Source: Rhodococcus tukisamuensis NBRC 100609
GTDB taxonomy: Bacteria; Actinomycetota; Actinomycetes; Mycobacteriales; Mycobacteriaceae
NCBI RefSeq assembly: GCF_001894985.1
Contig: NZ_BCXG01000008.1
Span: 62,001-126,000, forward strand
DNA: 64,000 nt
Reading direction: 5' to 3'
A model generated the notes under the pieces. The model saw only the letters and a list, made by a program, of their open reading frames with translations, did not search any database and had not been told where the DNA came from. A program made the position numbers and the translations under genes. Numbering within the stretch: the stretch's first letter is position 1; each line of letters starts with the position of its first letter. This document shows, piece by piece, positions 18,537 through 23,864 of the stretch.

Positions 18537-19133
18537 TCATGGTGTGGCCATGAATTCCTGAACCGCGACCTTCGCGTTCGGGTTGCCCTCGTCGATGCCG
18601 ATGATGGCGCCGACGCCGGCGCCCACGACGTTGCCGATCATGCAGCCGGCCATGAAGTTCGGGAAGATCGACACGCAGCCGACGAGCATGCCGACGACCG
18701 AGCCGACCATCATCTTCTGCTGACCGCCGTTGGCCCAGCCGATGCTGACCTCGTCCGCCGCGTGTTGGAAGGCCTCCTGCTTGGCCTGGTTCTCCGGCCA
18801 GGCCTGGTCCGCGATCATCGTGGTCACCTGCGAAGCGTCGGGGACCGCGGGGATTCCGGGGACCGCGGGCGGTCCGGGGACCGCCGGTGGTCCGGGGACC
18901 GTGGGCAGCGGGGGCAGGCCGGGGATCGCGGGGAGACCGGGCAGCACCGGATCTGCGACGTTGAACTGCGGAAGCGGCGGAAGCGGCGGCAGTTGAGGTG
19001 GCGGCGGCAGAGCCGGAAGCGCGGGCATTTCGGGAAGACCCGGCAGGATCGGCTGCGCGCCGGCGGTGCCCGAGCCCGCGGCGACGGCGGCGAAGACGAG
19101 CGCGGGCATGACAAGAGCCTTGGCCATTTTCAT
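18537..19133 (-). CDS. Secreted Pro-rich protein with C-terminal glycine-rich hydrophobic domain
   Basis: A 198-residue exported protein. A signal peptide occupies residues 1-26 (MKMAKALVMPALVFAAVAAG, cleavage after AGA). Next come degenerate LPxLP and VPGPPAVPG repeats to about residue 100, then a short helix (QAKQEAFQHAADE). A hydrophobic Gly-rich domain with two Cys follows (GMLVGCVSIFPNFMAGCMIG, then GNVVGAGVGAIIGID). Such glycine-zipper-like segments may insert into membranes or the mycolate outer layer (inference). The ATG at 19133 has GGGGA upstream and overlaps the stop of a possible 67-codon upstream ORF. Function unknown. Confidence 0.72.
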   Translation of the reverse strand: MKMAKALVMPALVFAAVAAGSGTAGAQPILPGLPEMPALPALPPPPQLPPLPPLPQFNVADPVLPGLPAIPGLPPLPTVPGPPAVPGPPAVPGIPAVPDASQVTTMIADQAWPENQAKQEAFQHAADEVSIGWANGGQQKMMVGSVVGMLVGCVSIFPNFMAGCMIGNVVGAGVGAIIGIDEGNPNAKVAVQEFMATP

Positions 19134-19465
19134 GGCAATCCCCAATGGTGAACTCGACGATGGACCTCGAATCGGCGGCCCGGTCGGGGGCCACTCGACG
19201 GCAGTGCCGCAGCTCGTGCGGCGTCGTATCGCGGTTGATGCGTACTCCCGCTGCGCCTGCTGATCGCGCACGGGTTCTCTTGGGAGGTGTTGCAGCCCGG
19301 GTGTTTCAGGCCCAGGCCCCCGGCTGGTTCCATGTAGCGCTCCTCGAGAGGTCGCCAAATGCCTGACTGACTCTACCGCGGGAGCGGCGCCCCTATACAG
19401 GAAACGAACGGCTGGAGCGGGAGCGACTCGCCGGTAACGCAGGGGATGAATGTGGCGAAAGGGAC
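19134..19465. other. Divergent intergenic region
   Basis: 332 nt separate two divergent genes. The only notable content is a minus-strand frame (19130-19333) with a GAGGAG site, discussed as a finding. No tRNA, repeat or clear terminator was recognised. Promoters for both neighbours must lie here but no convincing -35/-10 pair stands out. Confidence 0.5.
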
Positions 19466-20800
19466 ATGAGGGACGACGAGTCGAGGGATGGGGAACGGGT
19501 GGACGAGGCGACGACACGGCCGTGGTGGCGCAGGACGGCCTTCTGGACGAACACCCTGGTGGTGGTGTCGATCGTGGCGACCGGGGTGGTGGTCGCCGGG
19601 CTGACGCGGCCGCCGGAGCGGCCGTCCGAGGACCCGCGGGCGGCCGCGGAGGACTACCTCACGCCGCCGGTGCAGTACCCGGCGCAGATCCCCGGCTGCG
19701 ACGCGGTCGAGCCCCCGTCCACGGCGGAGTGGGCGGCCTACTCGAGCTTCGGGGAGCAGACGTACGACAATCCCCGTGAGCCGTGGTTCTCCGGACCCAA
19801 GGCGACGGCGATGGCGCAGGCGCTGGCCGCGGCGCTGCCGCCGGACGCGGCGGTGGACCTCGCGAGGCCGCTGGTGTTCGACCCGATCGCCGACTTCGGC
19901 GGAGATGATCGGGACGACGTCCCCGGCTGGACCTCGCTCTGGACCAACCTCGACCGCGGGTCCGGCCCCGGCGAGTTCAACGTGCAGGTGGCCAACTGGG
20001 ACCGTGCCGTGCCGGCCTGTGTGGCAGGCGATCTCGTGCGCCGCATCGCCGGGCCCGGCGACGCGGTCGTCGACCTGCAGGAGACCTGGTACCAGGTCGG
20101 CCCGTTCCGGACGTTCAGCCGGTCGGCGACGGGCTACCTGCCCGACGGGTCGTCCGTGCTTGCTCAGGTCACCGACCAGGTGGCGGTGGGGAGCGGCGGG
20201 GAGCCGGAGGTCGCGGCGGAGTTCCCGCTGACCCTCGACGAGCTGACCGCGATCGTGACCGCCCCAGGGCTGCGGGTCACCGCGCCGGTGCCGCCGGGCA
20301 CCCCGGCGCCGCGGGAGAGATGCAGCGCCGACTCCGAGGCCTCCGGTCGGGAACTGACCCGGGAGGACATCGCCCGCCTGGGCGGCGCGCTCGACGCCTC
20401 GTGGCGGGCCGGCACGCCCGCCGGCGTCACCCTCGACGGGACGCTGGACGCCTTGCAGCTCGGCGGGGCCGGCCGCAACGCGGTCTGCGTCGAGGTCGGG
20501 ACCTCCGGGCCGGGCGGTCCCGGGGCGCTGACCGTCGGGATCGGAGGCGGTCACAGGCCGCCAGTCCCGCTCGATCCGTACGACCCGGCGGCCGAGCACG
20601 ATCGCACCGAGATCCGTTCTCTCCCGGACGGTTCCGTCAGTGCCCGGACCGGACCGAGCGGCCAGTTCGGCAGCTACCGCCAGGTGGCCGTCACCCGGCC
20701 GTCCGGCACCCGGGTCTCCGTGAGCTGGCGGGGGCCCGAGTTGCCGACGTTCGAGCAACTCGAATCCTTGGCGGTCGCACCGGGTCTGGATCTGCCGTGA
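19466..20800 (+). CDS. Membrane-anchored hypothetical protein, first of a coupled pair
   Basis: A 444-residue protein with a cytoplasmic N-terminus rich in charged residues, one transmembrane helix (TNTLVVVSIVATGVVVAGLT, about residues 28-48) and a large extracytoplasmic domain. Cys residues (IPGCDAVE, VPACVAG, RERCSAD, NAVCVEV) could form disulfides. No known domain is recognised. Start ATG at 19466 has AAAGGGAC. It shares a GTGA overlap with the next gene, which also has one N-terminal helix, so the two products may act together at the cell surface. Confidence 0.7.
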   Translation: MRDDESRDGERVDEATTRPWWRRTAFWTNTLVVVSIVATGVVVAGLTRPPERPSEDPRAAAEDYLTPPVQYPAQIPGCDAVEPPSTAEWAAYSSFGEQTYDNPREPWFSGPKATAMAQALAAALPPDAAVDLARPLVFDPIADFGGDDRDDVPGWTSLWTNLDRGSGPGEFNVQVANWDRAVPACVAGDLVRRIAGPGDAVVDLQETWYQVGPFRTFSRSATGYLPDGSSVLAQVTDQVAVGSGGEPEVAAEFPLTLDELTAIVTAPGLRVTAPVPPGTPAPRERCSADSEASGRELTREDIARLGGALDASWRAGTPAGVTLDGTLDALQLGGAGRNAVCVEVGTSGPGGPGALTVGIGGGHRPPVPLDPYDPAAEHDRTEIRSLPDGSVSARTGPSGQFGSYRQVAVTRPSGTRVSVSWRGPELPTFEQLESLAVAPGLDLP

Positions 20801-22176
20801 CGAGGGAGACGCGGAACCTGATCGCGGCGGCGGTGGTCGCCGTCGTCACCGTGACTGCGGCCGTGGCGGTGCTCGTCCGGGACCAGCCGCCCGCCGAGAC
20901 CTTCCCGGCGTTCACCGGACCCGGGTACACCGACTACCTGCCGGGGCCGACCGAGGACGTGCAGCCGGCAGGGCCACCGGCCGTCGAGTCCTGGCGCCTG
21001 GACGCCGAGCAGGCATACGGGCGGAAGTTCGCGCAGTTCCGGAACCCGTTGTGGGGCACCGAGTTCGACTCCGACGACACCGGTGGCATCGCGGTGGGCA
21101 GCACCGTCGTCGCCGCGATCGGGCTGCCCAAGCCGGGCGGCTACTCGCTCGACCACGCGCGGCTGGTCGGCGTCGACGCGGGCAGCGGCGCGGTGCGCTG
21201 GCAGGTGCCGGCGGACGGCCTGGGCGGCTGTGCCCCGAGGCCGCTGGGCGAGAGCGTCGTCTGCTTCACCACCGGGTACGACGGGCGGGACGAGATCGTC
21301 GCCGTCGACGCCCGCTCGGGCGAGGTCACCCGCACCGCGACCGACTGGATGTCGTTCGGCATCGCCGTCGGCGGCGACCGGGTGTTCACGGTGGAGGGCA
21401 ACCCGGAGGACGCCGACGTGCGGGTGCACGCCGGCAGCGTCGCGGACCCGGCCGCGCACTGGAGCACCCCCGTCGAGGTGAGCGGCGGCTGGGAGGACGT
21501 GCCCGGCACGGCGGTGCTGACGGTGGCCGGTGACGTCGCGCTGGTGCAGGTGGCCGGGGAGGCCGTCGGACTCGACGCCCGCACCGGCCGGCAGACGTGG
21601 GCCAGGGTCGTGCCGGACTGCGTCGAGTCGGCCGCGATCGTCGCCGGTCCGGTGACACTGGTCGGCCGCACCGACTGCTCCGGCCACCTGCGGGAGATCG
21701 AGGCCCGCGCCGCCGACGGACGAGTGCTGACCAGCGTGGCCACGGGTGTGGCGGCGCAGCCGGAGCGGCAGGTCGATCCCGAGCTTCCGATGGTGATCGG
21801 TGACGGCGCCTACGACCGGACCACCGGCAAGCGGGTGTGGCGCAGCGACGACATTCGGGACGCCACCTCGGTCGCGGTGGTGGGGGAGACAGTGCTGGTG
21901 CACGCTGCTGACACCGCGTCGGGCATCGACCTGGCGACCGGCGAGCGGCTGTGGCAACGGGAGACCGATGTCGCGGCCGAGTACGTCGGCTACGACGGCG
22001 ACGTGGCGTACGGCGGAAACGGTCGCGGGGCGTTCGCGATGGCGCCGCGCACCGGGGAGGTCGTGTGGGCCCTCGAGGACCTGGGCGAGCCGGGAGGGCA
22101 ACCCCGGTTGGTGGTTGCGGGGGATTCCGTTGTTGCGGTGAGTGGTTCGGCGATGGCGGGGGTGGGCGCTGCCTGA
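20797..22176 (+). CDS. Membrane-anchored PQQ-like beta-propeller protein
   Basis: A 459-residue protein with one N-terminal transmembrane helix (NLIAAAVVAVVTVTAAVAVL) and repeated blade motifs typical of PQQ-like beta-propellers: VGVDAGSGAVRWQVP, VAVDARSGEVTRT, VGLDARTGRQTWAR, GIDLATGERLWQR and AMAPRTGEVVWALE. These repeats suggest a BamB-like or WD40-like seven- or eight-blade scaffold outside the membrane. There is no sign of enzyme activity. The GTG start overlaps the preceding stop as GTGA. The last residues (MAGVGAA) run into decayed sequence, so the native C-terminus may have been altered. Confidence 0.75.
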   Translation: MTRETRNLIAAAVVAVVTVTAAVAVLVRDQPPAETFPAFTGPGYTDYLPGPTEDVQPAGPPAVESWRLDAEQAYGRKFAQFRNPLWGTEFDSDDTGGIAVGSTVVAAIGLPKPGGYSLDHARLVGVDAGSGAVRWQVPADGLGGCAPRPLGESVVCFTTGYDGRDEIVAVDARSGEVTRTATDWMSFGIAVGGDRVFTVEGNPEDADVRVHAGSVADPAAHWSTPVEVSGGWEDVPGTAVLTVAGDVALVQVAGEAVGLDARTGRQTWARVVPDCVESAAIVAGPVTLVGRTDCSGHLREIEARAADGRVLTSVATGVAAQPERQVDPELPMVIGDGAYDRTTGKRVWRSDDIRDATSVAVVGETVLVHAADTASGIDLATGERLWQRETDVAAEYVGYDGDVAYGGNGRGAFAMAPRTGEVVWALEDLGEPGGQPRLVVAGDSVVAVSGSAMAGVGAA

Positions 22177-22371
22177 ACTGCGCAGCGAGATCGCCGAGGT
22201 GCTCGCTGAGGGCTGGTCGAGCATCATGGCGAGTTCCCCGACTCCGGGCGTCTGCAGATCGGCCCCGTCACGGAGCGGGTAACGGACGTGAAGGTGATGC
22301 CGTGGACGCCGCTCGGCCTGCCGATGGACTGCCCGCTCGAGGCGAAGCAGGACGCGGTCCGCCTGCAGTGA
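22157..22371 (+). pseudogene. Frameshifted C-terminal gene fragment
   Basis: One frame reads WALPELRSEIAEVLAEGW then SSIM up to about 22230. A shifted frame then continues EFPDSGRLQIGPVTERV... to PLEAKQDAVRLQ, stopping at 22369-22371. Codon choice is strongly GC3-biased in both pieces, which supports former coding. There is no start codon with a ribosome site. The family is not recognised. It marks the left edge of a decayed segment that follows the beta-propeller gene. Confidence 0.45.
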
Positions 22372-22530
22372 TAGGGCTGTTTACCAGCAACAACGGTGAT
22401 AGTGCTTCCAAGCGGAGAGGGATTCGGCCTGTTTGCGAGGGCCTGGGACCGATCACTTTTGGCCGGCTGTCTGGAGGTCTAGCGTTGACCAGACGGATCG
22501 GCCCGGGACCGGAGGGGCGGGGATTTTGGA
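22372..22530 (+). other. Leader region before the micropeptide array
   Basis: 159 nt with no confident gene. A TTGACC hexamer at about 22493 could be a -35, but no good -10 follows. A 29-codon GTG frame is present but has no ribosome site. The promoter of the small-ORF array is expected here. Confidence 0.3.
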
Positions 22531-22653
22531 ATGACGCCAGAGACGAACCCGCAGTTTCAGAGCACCTGGATGTACCGACTGCCGTTCCCGATGGAATGGC
22601 GAGTCATCTTGTGGTCGATCGTCGGCTGCGACCTCGGTGGACACTGCCCGTAA
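22531..22653 (+). CDS. Micropeptide 1 of the Trp-rich C-x-LGG-x-C array (40 aa)
   Basis: The ORF encodes a 40-residue peptide starting MTPETNPQFQSTWMYRLPFP, with hydrophobic WRVILWSIVG and ending CDLGGHCP. The C-terminal CxLGGxCP motif is shared with three downstream ORFs. GGAGGGGCGGGG lies upstream at longer spacing than in the others. The peptide is rich in Trp and Pro and has a hydrophobic core before two Cys, suiting a membrane-active, disulfide-bonded or modified peptide. No known family is recognised. Confidence 0.5.
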   Translation: MTPETNPQFQSTWMYRLPFPMEWRVILWSIVGCDLGGHCP

Positions 22654-22678
22654 TCCAGCCAGAACTGAGGTGATCGAG

Positions 22679-22789
22679 ATGGACTTTCCACCGATCTGGT
22701 GGCTAATGCCCTACGGAATCGTCCCGGACAACATTCGGGTCTGGGTCCGGGACAATGCATCCTGTTGGCTGGGGGGATACTGCCCGTAA
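22679..22789 (+). CDS. Micropeptide 2 of the array (36 aa)
   Basis: A 36-residue peptide: MDFPPIWWLMPYGIVPDNIR followed by VWVRDNAS and CWLGGYCP. The ribosome site GAGGTGATC (22667-22675) is fully complementary to the 3' end of 16S rRNA, with GAG before the ATG. The coding segment from PYGIVPD to CP is homologous to micropeptide 4, and most differences between them are silent, which is direct evidence of selection at protein level. Function unknown; candidates are a bacteriocin-like, signalling or toxin peptide. Confidence 0.7.
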   Translation: MDFPPIWWLMPYGIVPDNIRVWVRDNASCWLGGYCP

Positions 22790-22809
22790 CCAACTTCGAG
22801 GTGATCTAG

Positions 22810-22905
22810 ATGGTGGACACATTCTGGTTCGAATGGATCCCGTACCCCATCAAAATCTGGCTACTGGCTGCCTTGGCCTGCAACCTGGGCGGGTGGAACT
22901 GCTAG
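22810..22905 (+). CDS. Micropeptide 3 of the array (31 aa)
   Basis: A 31-residue peptide: MVDTFWFEWIPYPIKIWLLA then ALACNLGGWNC. It shares the P-[FY]-[PG] turn, a hydrophobic stretch and the C-x-LGG-x(1-2)-C ending with its neighbours. The ribosome site GAGGTGATC (22798-22806) is identical to that of micropeptide 2 and lies 3 nt before ATG. Trp and Phe make up a large share of residues. The stop is in the same frame as the next ORF. Confidence 0.65.
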   Translation: MVDTFWFEWIPYPIKIWLLAALACNLGGWNC

Positions 22906-22908
22906 TGA

Positions 22909-23028
22909 TTGGGGGCGCGAATCCTCCTGCGGACCTCGGGGTTTCTGCCCTACGGGATTGTCCCGGACCCCATCCGAATCTGGATCCGGGACAACGCCCC
23001 GTGCTGGTTGGGCGGGCACTGCCCCTGA
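22909..23028 (+). CDS. Micropeptide 4 of the array, duplicate of micropeptide 2, start degraded
   Basis: From PYGIVPDPIRIWIRDNAP to CWLGGHCP the sequence is a diverged copy of micropeptide 2 (26 aligned codons). The upstream part aligns only with a single-base shift, and the position of the ATG appears as GCG. The only start is a TTG at 22909 directly after two stop codons, giving 39 residues. It may be translated by re-initiation after micropeptide 3 or may be a recent pseudogene. Confidence 0.45.
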   Translation: MGARILLRTSGFLPYGIVPDPIRIWIRDNAPCWLGGHCP

Positions 23029-23043
23029 GAGGAGGTGAACGAG

Positions 23044-23124
23044 ATGGACACCTGGACTTTTTGGTACGGCCCCATCGGCACTGTCATCGACGTCGTGCTC
23101 GCTTGGTGGAATACGACGTTCTGA
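23044..23124 (+). CDS. Micropeptide 5 of the array (26 aa, lacks the Cys motif)
   Basis: A 26-residue peptide: MDTWTFWYGPIGTVIDVVLA then WWNTTF. It has the strongest ribosome site of the cluster (AGGAGGTGA at 23030-23038), starting 2 nt after the stop of micropeptide 4. It is Trp-rich and hydrophobic like the others but has no cysteine, so it may be a partner or immunity-type peptide (speculation). A perfect hairpin follows the stop. Confidence 0.55.
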   Translation: MDTWTFWYGPIGTVIDVVLAWWNTTF

Positions 23125-23126
23125 CA

Positions 23127-23166
23127 AATGACGGGCCAGCGAGATTTAGATCGCTGGCCCGTCATT
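23127..23166 (+). terminator. Perfect 16-bp hairpin ending the micropeptide array
   Basis: AATGACGGGCCAGCGA (23127-23142) pairs without mismatch with 23151-23166 across an 8-nt loop. It starts 2 nt after the last micropeptide stop. No T-tract follows on either strand. It faces a minus-strand fragment ending at 23173 and could serve both directions. Confidence 0.75.
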
Positions 23167-23172
23167 GTGTGA

Positions 23173-23320
23173 TCAGTTGTTGGTGGCCATGAATCCCTTG
23201 CCGACCGGGAATGGGCTACCGGGGGAGTTGATCTCGTTGAGCACCGCCGAGAACTTCACGTGCTCGAACGACGTCGTGCTGGCAGCCAGGCCGGACACCC
23301 CGAGGTCTACGTCGGCTCGA
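23173..23320 (-). pseudogene. C-terminal fragment of an unrecognised gene
   Basis: On the minus strand a frame reads ADVDLGVSGLAASTTSFEHV then KFSAVLNEINSPGSPFPVGK and GFMATNN, with a stop at 23173-23175. The sequence looks protein-like but has no start with a ribosome site; a GTG before SGLAA would give 41 residues. The family is not recognised. It is one piece of the decayed segment next to tRNA-Arg. Confidence 0.4.
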
Positions 23321-23420
23321 CGAGGTCCGCGTACGCGCGCAACTGGTCGGCGATCACCCGGGCCTCACGCGGGCTGAGCGTCAGACAGCCGTCGCCGTAC
23401 TCCGCACCCTGTCGGCTGAT
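23307..23420 (-). pseudogene. Short C-terminal fragment (LTLSPREAR...)
   Basis: The minus frame ending at 23307 closes with CLTLSPREARVIADQLRAYA then DLVEPT, a pattern seen at the C-termini of many small actinobacterial and phage proteins. The preceding residues of the longer frame (to 23576) look like a shadow of the opposite strand, so only the last 35 or so residues are credited. Function unknown. Confidence 0.35.
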
Positions 23421-23699
23421 ATCGCGATCAGCGGCACGGCGGTACGTACCGACGAGACCGAGACAGAGCGGCGGGCCCGGCTGGTCGCGGACCTCACGGA
23501 TGGGCATGCTGCGACGACCGAGCGGGTCGATCAGGTGACGGCGGACCTTGCTGCCGACCGCGCCCGAGCCCAGCATTCTCTCGAGAGTCTGGCCGATGAG
23601 CTGGATCAGGAGGCGAAGGCGGATGCCCGGCTGGCCGGATGGGGTGTTGTCGCGATTGGGGCCGGAATCATCCTGCAGACGGTCGGATCGCTGCTGTGA
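23400..23699 (+). pseudogene. Truncated coiled-coil protein with C-terminal membrane helix
   Basis: The plus frame ending with the TGA at 23697-23699 reads VLRTLSADIAISGTAVRTDE onward, with long charged helical stretches (ERRARLVADLTDGHAATTER, RAQHSLESLADELDQEAKAD) and a final transmembrane helix (GWGVVAIGAGIILQTVGSLL). Codon use is coding-like, yet no start codon exists upstream, so the N-terminus is lost. The architecture recalls small phage or plasmid coiled-coil membrane proteins (inference). Confidence 0.45.
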
Positions 23700-23790
23700 A
23701 CTCGCCCGACAACTCGGGCTTCAAGGGAACGTAGAGGGAATGCGGCAGGAGCGGGACGCCTAAAAGCAGTCGTGAACTGCGCAAACAGAG
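23700..23790. other. Short gap between island and tRNA-Arg
   Basis: 91 nt with a small hairpin (GCCCGA-caac-TCGGGC) and no gene. It lies immediately 3' of tRNA-Arg. No second copy of the tRNA 3' end was found in the island. Confidence 0.4.
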
Positions 23791-23864
23791 TGCCCCCGGC
23801 AGGAATCGAACCTGCGACCTAGAGATTAGAAGGCTCTTGCTCTATCCAACTGAGCTACGGAGGC
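23791..23864 (-). tRNA. tRNA-Arg (anticodon TCT)
   Basis: The minus strand folds as a tRNA: acceptor GCCTCCG pairs with CGGGGGC, anticodon loop CTTCTAA gives TCT, and the T-loop is TTCGATT. The CCA is not encoded. Its 3' end faces the accessory segment at 22.2-23.8 kb, which is the usual orientation for integration into tRNA genes. Confidence 0.95.

Follow-up and report, generated by a model that had tools for sequence, protein, structure and literature searches.

The window, a stretch of 64,000 nucleotides from Rhodococcus tukisamuensis NBRC 100609, carries a polycistronic, self-contained unit of genes for apparently leaderless micropeptides, one of many mosaic arrays that draw on three peptide classes (here called alpha, beta and gamma). 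Both the family and the array type appear to be new. Pfam and NCBIfam returned no match at E values up to 1, assignment to a known family was dropped after a best PDB match of E 0.59 and weak PHROG matches of E 0.31 (ORF5) and E 0.46 (a gamma peptide), and in the open-licence literature the motif strings are absent and nothing relevant is found on such peptides in Rhodococcus. A sequence-only reading of the same DNA had known of no family that fits, and the library searches bear this out: none of the libraries searched contains the family, and the plasmid and phage records that were opened, those of the R. equi virulence plasmids among them, annotate little of it.

The window's array and its flanks

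The five consecutive tiny ORFs that the sequence-only reading had described, four of them with cysteine endings, are confirmed at the stated place, as is the perfect 16-bp hairpin that it saw closing the array (Table 1). ORFs 1 to 4 end in CDLGGHCP, CWLGGYCP, CNLGGWNC and CWLGGHCP, respectively. Its description of ORF5 as Trp-rich and without Cys is correct and was incomplete, in that the peptide is a member of a second family (beta), and there is a third (gamma) besides. By eye, none of the window's five peptides has a signal-like start. Alpha peptides of the same type as ORF1 stand first in several arrays, and an in-frame relic on another contig of this genome (C7) has, as read by eye, the N-terminus of ORF1. 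ORF2 is 86% identical to an R. equi plasmid peptide and is modeled by AF2 with a helix at residues 17-30 (mean pLDDT 69.5, a moderate model of one peptide), and a relative of ORF3 is present on contig C24. ORF4 shares 75% identity with ORF2 over 93 nt (repeat D1) and is probably a decaying copy, because it has a TTG start, lacks a Shine-Dalgarno sequence and differs at its N-terminus from its sister ORF2. An 18-nt repeat (D3) comprising the Shine-Dalgarno sequence and the start is found in three copies, ahead of ORFs 2, 3 and 5, with 83-100% identity to the reference copy.

Table 1. Positions of the array, its signals and adjoining features in the window, and of secreted protein genes beside other arrays (L, locus)
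Feature	Position	Strand	Remarks
Presumed promoter -10, TAGCGT	22480-22485	+	By-eye comparison of 20 upstream regions
Leader element GGATCGGCCCGGGAC	22495-22509	+	GGTCGGGAC, the leader in other arrays, in interrupted form
Shine-Dalgarno-like GGAGGGG	22511-22517	+	By-eye comparison of 20 upstream regions
ORF1	22531-22653	+	40 aa; alpha peptide of CDLGGHCP type
Shine-Dalgarno GAGGTGA of ORF2	22667-22673	+	Repeat D3
ORF2	22679-22789	+	36 aa; alpha peptide MDFPPIWWLMPYGIVPDNIRVWVRDNASCWLGGYCP
Shine-Dalgarno GAGGTGA of ORF3	22798-22804	+	Repeat D3
ORF3	22810-22905	+	31 aa; alpha peptide MVDTFWFEWIPYPIKIWLLAALACNLGGWNC
ORF4	22909-23028	+	39 aa; alpha copy of ORF2 with eroded N-terminus
Shine-Dalgarno GAGGTGA of ORF5	23032-23038	+	Repeat D3
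ORF5	23044-23124	+	26 aa; beta peptide MDTWTFWYGPIGTVIDVVLAWWNTTF, matched by the beta profile
Hairpin	23127-23166	+	Perfect 16-bp stem, 8-nt loop
3' remnant of convergent gene for a probable secreted trypsin-like protease	23173-23364	-	
tRNA-Arg(tct)	23790-23864	-	Conserved edge of the variable segment holding the array
Genes for a ~140-aa secreted protein	L025:7684-8118, L026:16256-16702, L027:7353-7787, L068:6471-6931, others		Extra copies beside arrays

The heptamer GGTCGGG occurs no more than 75 nt before the start in 13 of 20 upstream regions, which were chosen by us, against ∼0.34 predicted by its abundance in the same loci, an excess that is partly due to common ancestry; the window is one of the seven regions without it. 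A scan of the window's upstream region for a sigma-70 consensus promoter gave no call. At the other end, the hairpin folds at -34.9 kcal/mol (z -7.6), has no T-run and is not called by a terminator scan; it is presumed to be the common 3' end of the array and the convergent protease gene. A stem 3' of an array in genome G152 has a z of -6.9, and the stretch tested 3' of the Prescottella defluvii array shows no unusual folding (z -0.85). Two other ideas about these flanks were discarded, a structured RNA because Rfam finds only the tRNA, and an SOS box after inspection by eye.

The tRNA-Arg(tct) gene occupies the same position in five congeners. To its left, similarity returns only at ∼18.75-19.1 kb of the window in three of the five, and never within the fetched 9 kb in the other two. 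In genome G001 an ORF2-like relic with an in-frame stop adjoins the tRNA. The segment of the window that varies relative to the congeners (∼18750-23788) ends at this tRNA and resembles a turnover hotspot.

Coding evidence and peptide classes

The family almost certainly represents real coding operons. The micropeptide genes are under purifying selection, with dN/dS values of 0.04-0.31: 0.08 for the window's ORF2 against its counterpart on plasmid pVAPA, 0.15 for ORF4 against ORF2, 0.04-0.25 across other pairs and 0.05-0.31 for pooled subfamilies. Third codon positions are the most variable in 11 of the 12 comparisons and tie in the remaining one, and the 14 pooled type-2 copies have a pS of 0.63 and a pN of 0.25. 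The ORFs are short, start after a Shine-Dalgarno sequence and are conserved over their whole length. Such a sequence precedes 79 of the 102 ATG starts in our catalogue, compared with 852 of the 8678 ATGs present in the catalogue's loci, an excess that arises partly by construction since the choice of starts favours it. Same-strand gaps shorter than 300 nt (n = 66) have a median of 16 nt. There are six 1-nt TGATG overlaps, five joining different genes and one lying inside a frameshifted copy on contig C6.

Alpha and beta genes tend to keep company. Of 30 beta matches, 22 have an alpha no more than 300 nt away, and among 59 genomes 14 have both classes, 5 alpha only, 1 beta only and 39 neither (Fisher p 1.2e-8), figures that come from profiles seeded from many of the same genomes and from genomes that are not independent. 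Each class is also found alone, alpha at L032 and L033, and beta in two phages, in genome G003 and on contig C28 of G092, and therefore no fixed pair is obligatory.

The catalogue comprises 123 profile matches (75 alpha, 41 beta and 7 gamma, counts that include fragments and a few weak matches) at 41 of 42 loci. Alpha peptides have two Cys near the C-terminus; beta peptides, including the window's ORF5, have F-x-GP and no Cys; gamma peptides are recognised by P-x-WLYDxLYQLWLWGIPP and occur on pVAPB and pVAPN1572 and in G152, G092, G141 and G162. Exactly two Cys are present in 59 of the 62 distinct alpha peptides that reach 24 aa (with five residues between them in 36 of the 59) and P-C in 55 of the 62, features that the profile itself rewards; G-P is present in 35 of 38 beta peptides. 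Trp makes up 11.6% of alpha, 7.1% of beta and 9.5% of gamma residues, mean net charges are -0.95, -0.90 and -1.14, respectively, and beta has a GRAVY of +0.71. Ser is missing from 29 of the 62 alpha and 21 of the 38 beta peptides, and the arrays of pVAPA, pVAPB, pVAPN1557 and G141 contain no peptide with Ser. The best conserved part of alpha is the C-terminal Cys tail, unlike the conserved leader and variable core of a RiPP precursor.

Arrays on chromosomes, plasmids and phages

A lack of homologues with a conserved reading frame in related genomes would have counted against the sequence-only reading, and such homologues were found: alpha profile A2 (17 rows) gave matches in 20 of 401 genomes from the taxonomic family, which belong to 5 of 31 genera, with purifying selection as described above. 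A larger profile, A7 (32 rows), run on 59 chosen genomes, matched 19, namely 17 of the 20 found with A2 plus G141 and G172 as new; weak A2 matches in G229, G237 and G242 (E 3.7e-4 to 5.0e-4) were absent with A7 and were dropped, at the loss of one genus. In two samples of the order (397 and 387 genomes) and one of the class (256), the profiles match only the window's own genome, and the concentration of matches in the family is therefore more than chance. A pattern scan of named genomes found a single locus, in Prescottella defluvii (CP121458.1); its DNA is identical to that of G192, and our genus g10 therefore includes Prescottella, whereas the window's genome falls in a different genus, g1. 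Genomes G152, G092, G129 and G182 have common flanking DNA and different array contents. A hotspot common to four g10 genomes was observed (L068, L074, L078 and L086), its array content varying between species. The window's genome (G000) has relatives of the array on contigs C6, C7, C15 and C24, the last of which carries a further, degraded one at a distance of 9 kb. A serine recombinase beside the array was considered as a general link and dropped, being present in 4 of 43 sources.

A tblastn search with ORF2 identified 28 plasmids (22 from R. equi, 6 from Rhodococcus), and no listed gene underlies any of the 28 matches in a plasmid gene table that describes itself as incomplete; a beta query matched 36 plasmids. 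The gene order is beta-alpha-beta on pVAPA (the first beta lacking a normal start), beta-gamma-alpha-beta on pVAPB, beta-gamma-beta-alpha-beta on pVAPN1572 and alpha-beta on pVAPN1557. In these four R. equi stretches, the last pVAPB beta alone falls in a listed gene (WP_257792819.1). All three host-associated types of R. equi virulence plasmid were seen to carry arrays (L008:2898-3235, L123:2202-2608, L125:2221-2727 and L124:1323-1558).

A beta query also located a phage of R. equi NRRL B-16538, Rhodococcus phage Madraxi (PP978820.1), which encodes three consecutive beta peptides (L146:3812-4114); 16 nt separate the first from the second, and the second and third are joined by a 1-nt TGATG overlap. 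GGTCGGG lies 27 nt upstream of the first peptide and a GGGCCAGC...GCCTGGCCCGC hairpin 3' of the array. Annotated gene 4 (L146:3725-4138) is antisense to all three betas and is probably not real, because at 0.64 its third-position GC falls well short of the 0.83-0.92 of its neighbours. The convergent gene 3 (L146:4169-4960), annotated as a minor tail protein, has by eye a signal-like start and the motif GPGDSGGP, and its match to trypsin families is weak and does not reach the cutoff (E 0.015). With Madraxi DNA as query a second phage, Jflix2, was located, which has a single beta between its genes 2 and 3, the place corresponding to the Madraxi array; this peptide is 75-80% identical to the first of Madraxi, with a profile E of only 0.005. 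Both phages possess a serine integrase and an immunity repressor, and their arrays are on the opposite strand from the adjoining tail genes. A moron is a prophage-carried gene that benefits the host, and the arrays of Madraxi and Jflix2 are placed like one, each being a separate unit of a temperate phage that stands apart from the main phage operons. Neither alpha nor gamma turned up in the scanned phage stretches, nor in phage records searched with two alpha queries and one gamma query. Viral contigs screened with two alpha patterns yielded a single match, whose frame is unrelated, and a query with the Madraxi protease confirmed none. Phage or plasmid products had been among the roles first proposed for the window's peptides, and the plasmid arrays and the two temperate phages make good that proposal.

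The window and Madraxi share one end of the cassette. Window positions 23132-23270 align at 81% with Madraxi L146:4128-4266, spanning the hairpin and the protease end, and the window remnant is therefore the 3' end of that protease gene; by tblastn it matches Madraxi gene 3 at 56% over 66 residues (E 4e-13 to 5e-13). Protease copies converge on arrays in G152 (L141:1955-2740; intact, 60 nt away), at L074 (61 nt) and at L026 (138 nt), and further pieces lie at L027 (matching over 34 nt of DNA) and L070 (interrupted by a stop), making seven places with Madraxi and the window, at five of which only a remnant is left. Intact relatives also exist apart from arrays (in G092, G077 and G061, among others), and a host origin of the protease is therefore as likely as a phage origin. 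Beside the window's array, no phage gene other than the protease remnant was found, and we therefore call it a copy of the same cassette and not a prophage remnant.

Candidate functions

Our preferred reading, advanced tentatively and by analogy, is that the arrays may be moron-like mobile cassettes whose leaderless peptides would assemble at the mycolate envelope, altering the surface and perhaps excluding competitors. The peptides of an array would be made jointly via translational coupling and would leave the cytoplasm without a signal peptide. The alpha tail would be closed by a disulfide, the conserved Cys pair suggesting an oxidising place, and hetero-oligomers like those of PorA, PorH and ProtX, tiny leaderless peptides from the same order of bacteria, might form at the mycolate envelope. 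Exclusion of rivals is a frequent gain for phages and plasmids, and here the carrier's gain would be a changed surface, most likely one that excludes competing phages or incoming plasmids; the swapping of array content would follow from such an arms race.

The passages of two sources that deal with these Corynebacterium glutamicum proteins describe PorA (45 aa) and PorH (57 aa) as encoded in one operon, PorA, PorH and ProtX as small, helical, without signal sequences and located in the mycolate outer membrane, phage Cog as requiring ProtX and PorA, and O-mycoloylation as required for PorH surface assembly (PMC12632848, PMC9671496). The route of the three proteins to that membrane is described as unclear (PMC12632848). 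The array peptides are likewise shorter than 60 aa, with two different small peptides per operon (the exceptions being L032, L033 and the phages). Unlike the corynebacterial proteins, the arrays are mosaic and mobile, alpha has a two-Cys tail, none being mentioned for PorA, PorH or ProtX in the same passages, and about half of the array peptides lack Ser, so that O-mycoloylation of the PorH type cannot work there. No sequence link between PorA or PorH and the array peptides emerged from the Pfam and NCBIfam searches. Phage morons and superinfection-exclusion genes resemble the arrays in being self-contained, in lying opposite tail genes and in differing in content between related phages, and differ from them in that no moron family is known to match and that several micropeptide classes are common to plasmids and chromosomes.

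Because phages, plasmids and chromosomes all carry them, the arrays are candidates for a part in envelope-level competition among the mobile elements of mycolate bacteria. They may also give a second protein set with which to study the passage of leaderless peptides to the mycolate outer membrane. Exclusion, if proven, would place them among prophage exclusion systems. By a bolder analogy, which we consider doubtful, chromosomes, conjugative plasmids and temperate phages of Rhodococcus-type bacteria might share an exchangeable three-class repertoire whose products form alternative hetero-oligomeric complexes in the mycolate outer membrane and act there as a modular surface code that shuts out rival phages and plasmids. 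If true, this code would be in use by resident replicons including all three host-associated R. equi plasmid types.

An unlikely but serious alternative is a leaderless multi-peptide bacteriocin whose peptides would jointly permeabilise competing mycolate actinobacteria. The peptides are Trp-rich, apparently leaderless, tandem, mobile, mosaic and decaying, as competition genes are, and at L028 a gene of SMI1/KNR4, which we take to be a family that includes immunity proteins, lies 1.4 kb from the array. As described in part of one source, aureocin A53-like leaderless bacteriocins are Trp-rich and aureocin A70 consists of four peptides (PMC6131525). Aureocin A70, garvicin KS and enterocin L50 also resemble the arrays in comprising several leaderless peptides of ∼30-45 aa. 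However, those are strongly cationic, leaderless bacteriocins having charges of +4 to +8 among the rows listed (PMC6131525), whereas the array peptides are acidic, with a charge of about -1 and no Lys in 49 of the 62 alpha peptides, and have in alpha a two-Cys tail. Transport and immunity genes are also missing: no transporter adjoins the arrays, an amino-acid ABC transporter at L030 being 2 kb away, and 11 of 12 annotated plasmid stretches (4-10 kb) have no ABC transporter gene. The charge likewise disfavours the antimicrobial role raised in the sequence-only reading, if meant as a classical cationic peptide. Its remark that no modification or export gene is adjacent holds: no RiPP modification enzyme or leader peptidase is annotated in the 12 plasmid stretches, and neither kind of gene emerged from a recurrence search of 35 loci, a weak search in which the gene caller recovered one of nine array-side genes for the ∼140-aa protein. 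Phenol-soluble modulins are tandem leaderless amphipathic peptides, and Rana-box frog peptides combine a helix with a C-terminal Cys ring; for both, the architecture alone is alike, and organisms and composition differ.

We regard it as quite improbable that the peptides are partners or substrates of cassette-encoded secreted proteins, for example matured or sensed extracellularly. The protease or its 3' remnant does converge on the array in seven places, and a gene for a ∼140-aa protein that seems to have a signal peptide stands beside the peptides on the same strand in nine loci (on the other strand in G192). However, the protease is only a remnant in most of those places, and the ∼140-aa family, which has no Pfam match, is far wider than alpha (109 versus 20 of 401 genomes), has no match on plasmids and is missing from the window's array.

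There is little to recommend intracellular membrane-acting toxins either, serving plasmid or prophage stability or phage-triggered growth arrest. Tiny hydrophobic peptides near parB on plasmids and on temperate phages would suit such a role, but operons for several distinct peptides, and a conserved Cys tail, are unusual for type I toxins, and PADLOC gave no match for four window peptides.

Regulatory leader peptides or functionless repeat debris can hardly account for the arrays: some copies do have stops or frameshifts (on C6, C7 and C24 and in G001), but purifying selection acts along the peptides, each unit holds several of them, there is no constant downstream gene, and phages and plasmids carry arrays.

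As a separate observation, a 52-aa hydrophobic ORF (MGSSISTLPAYFDTVYQVG...) with no Pfam match is located near the degraded array on contig C24, on the minus strand at L021:1640-1800.
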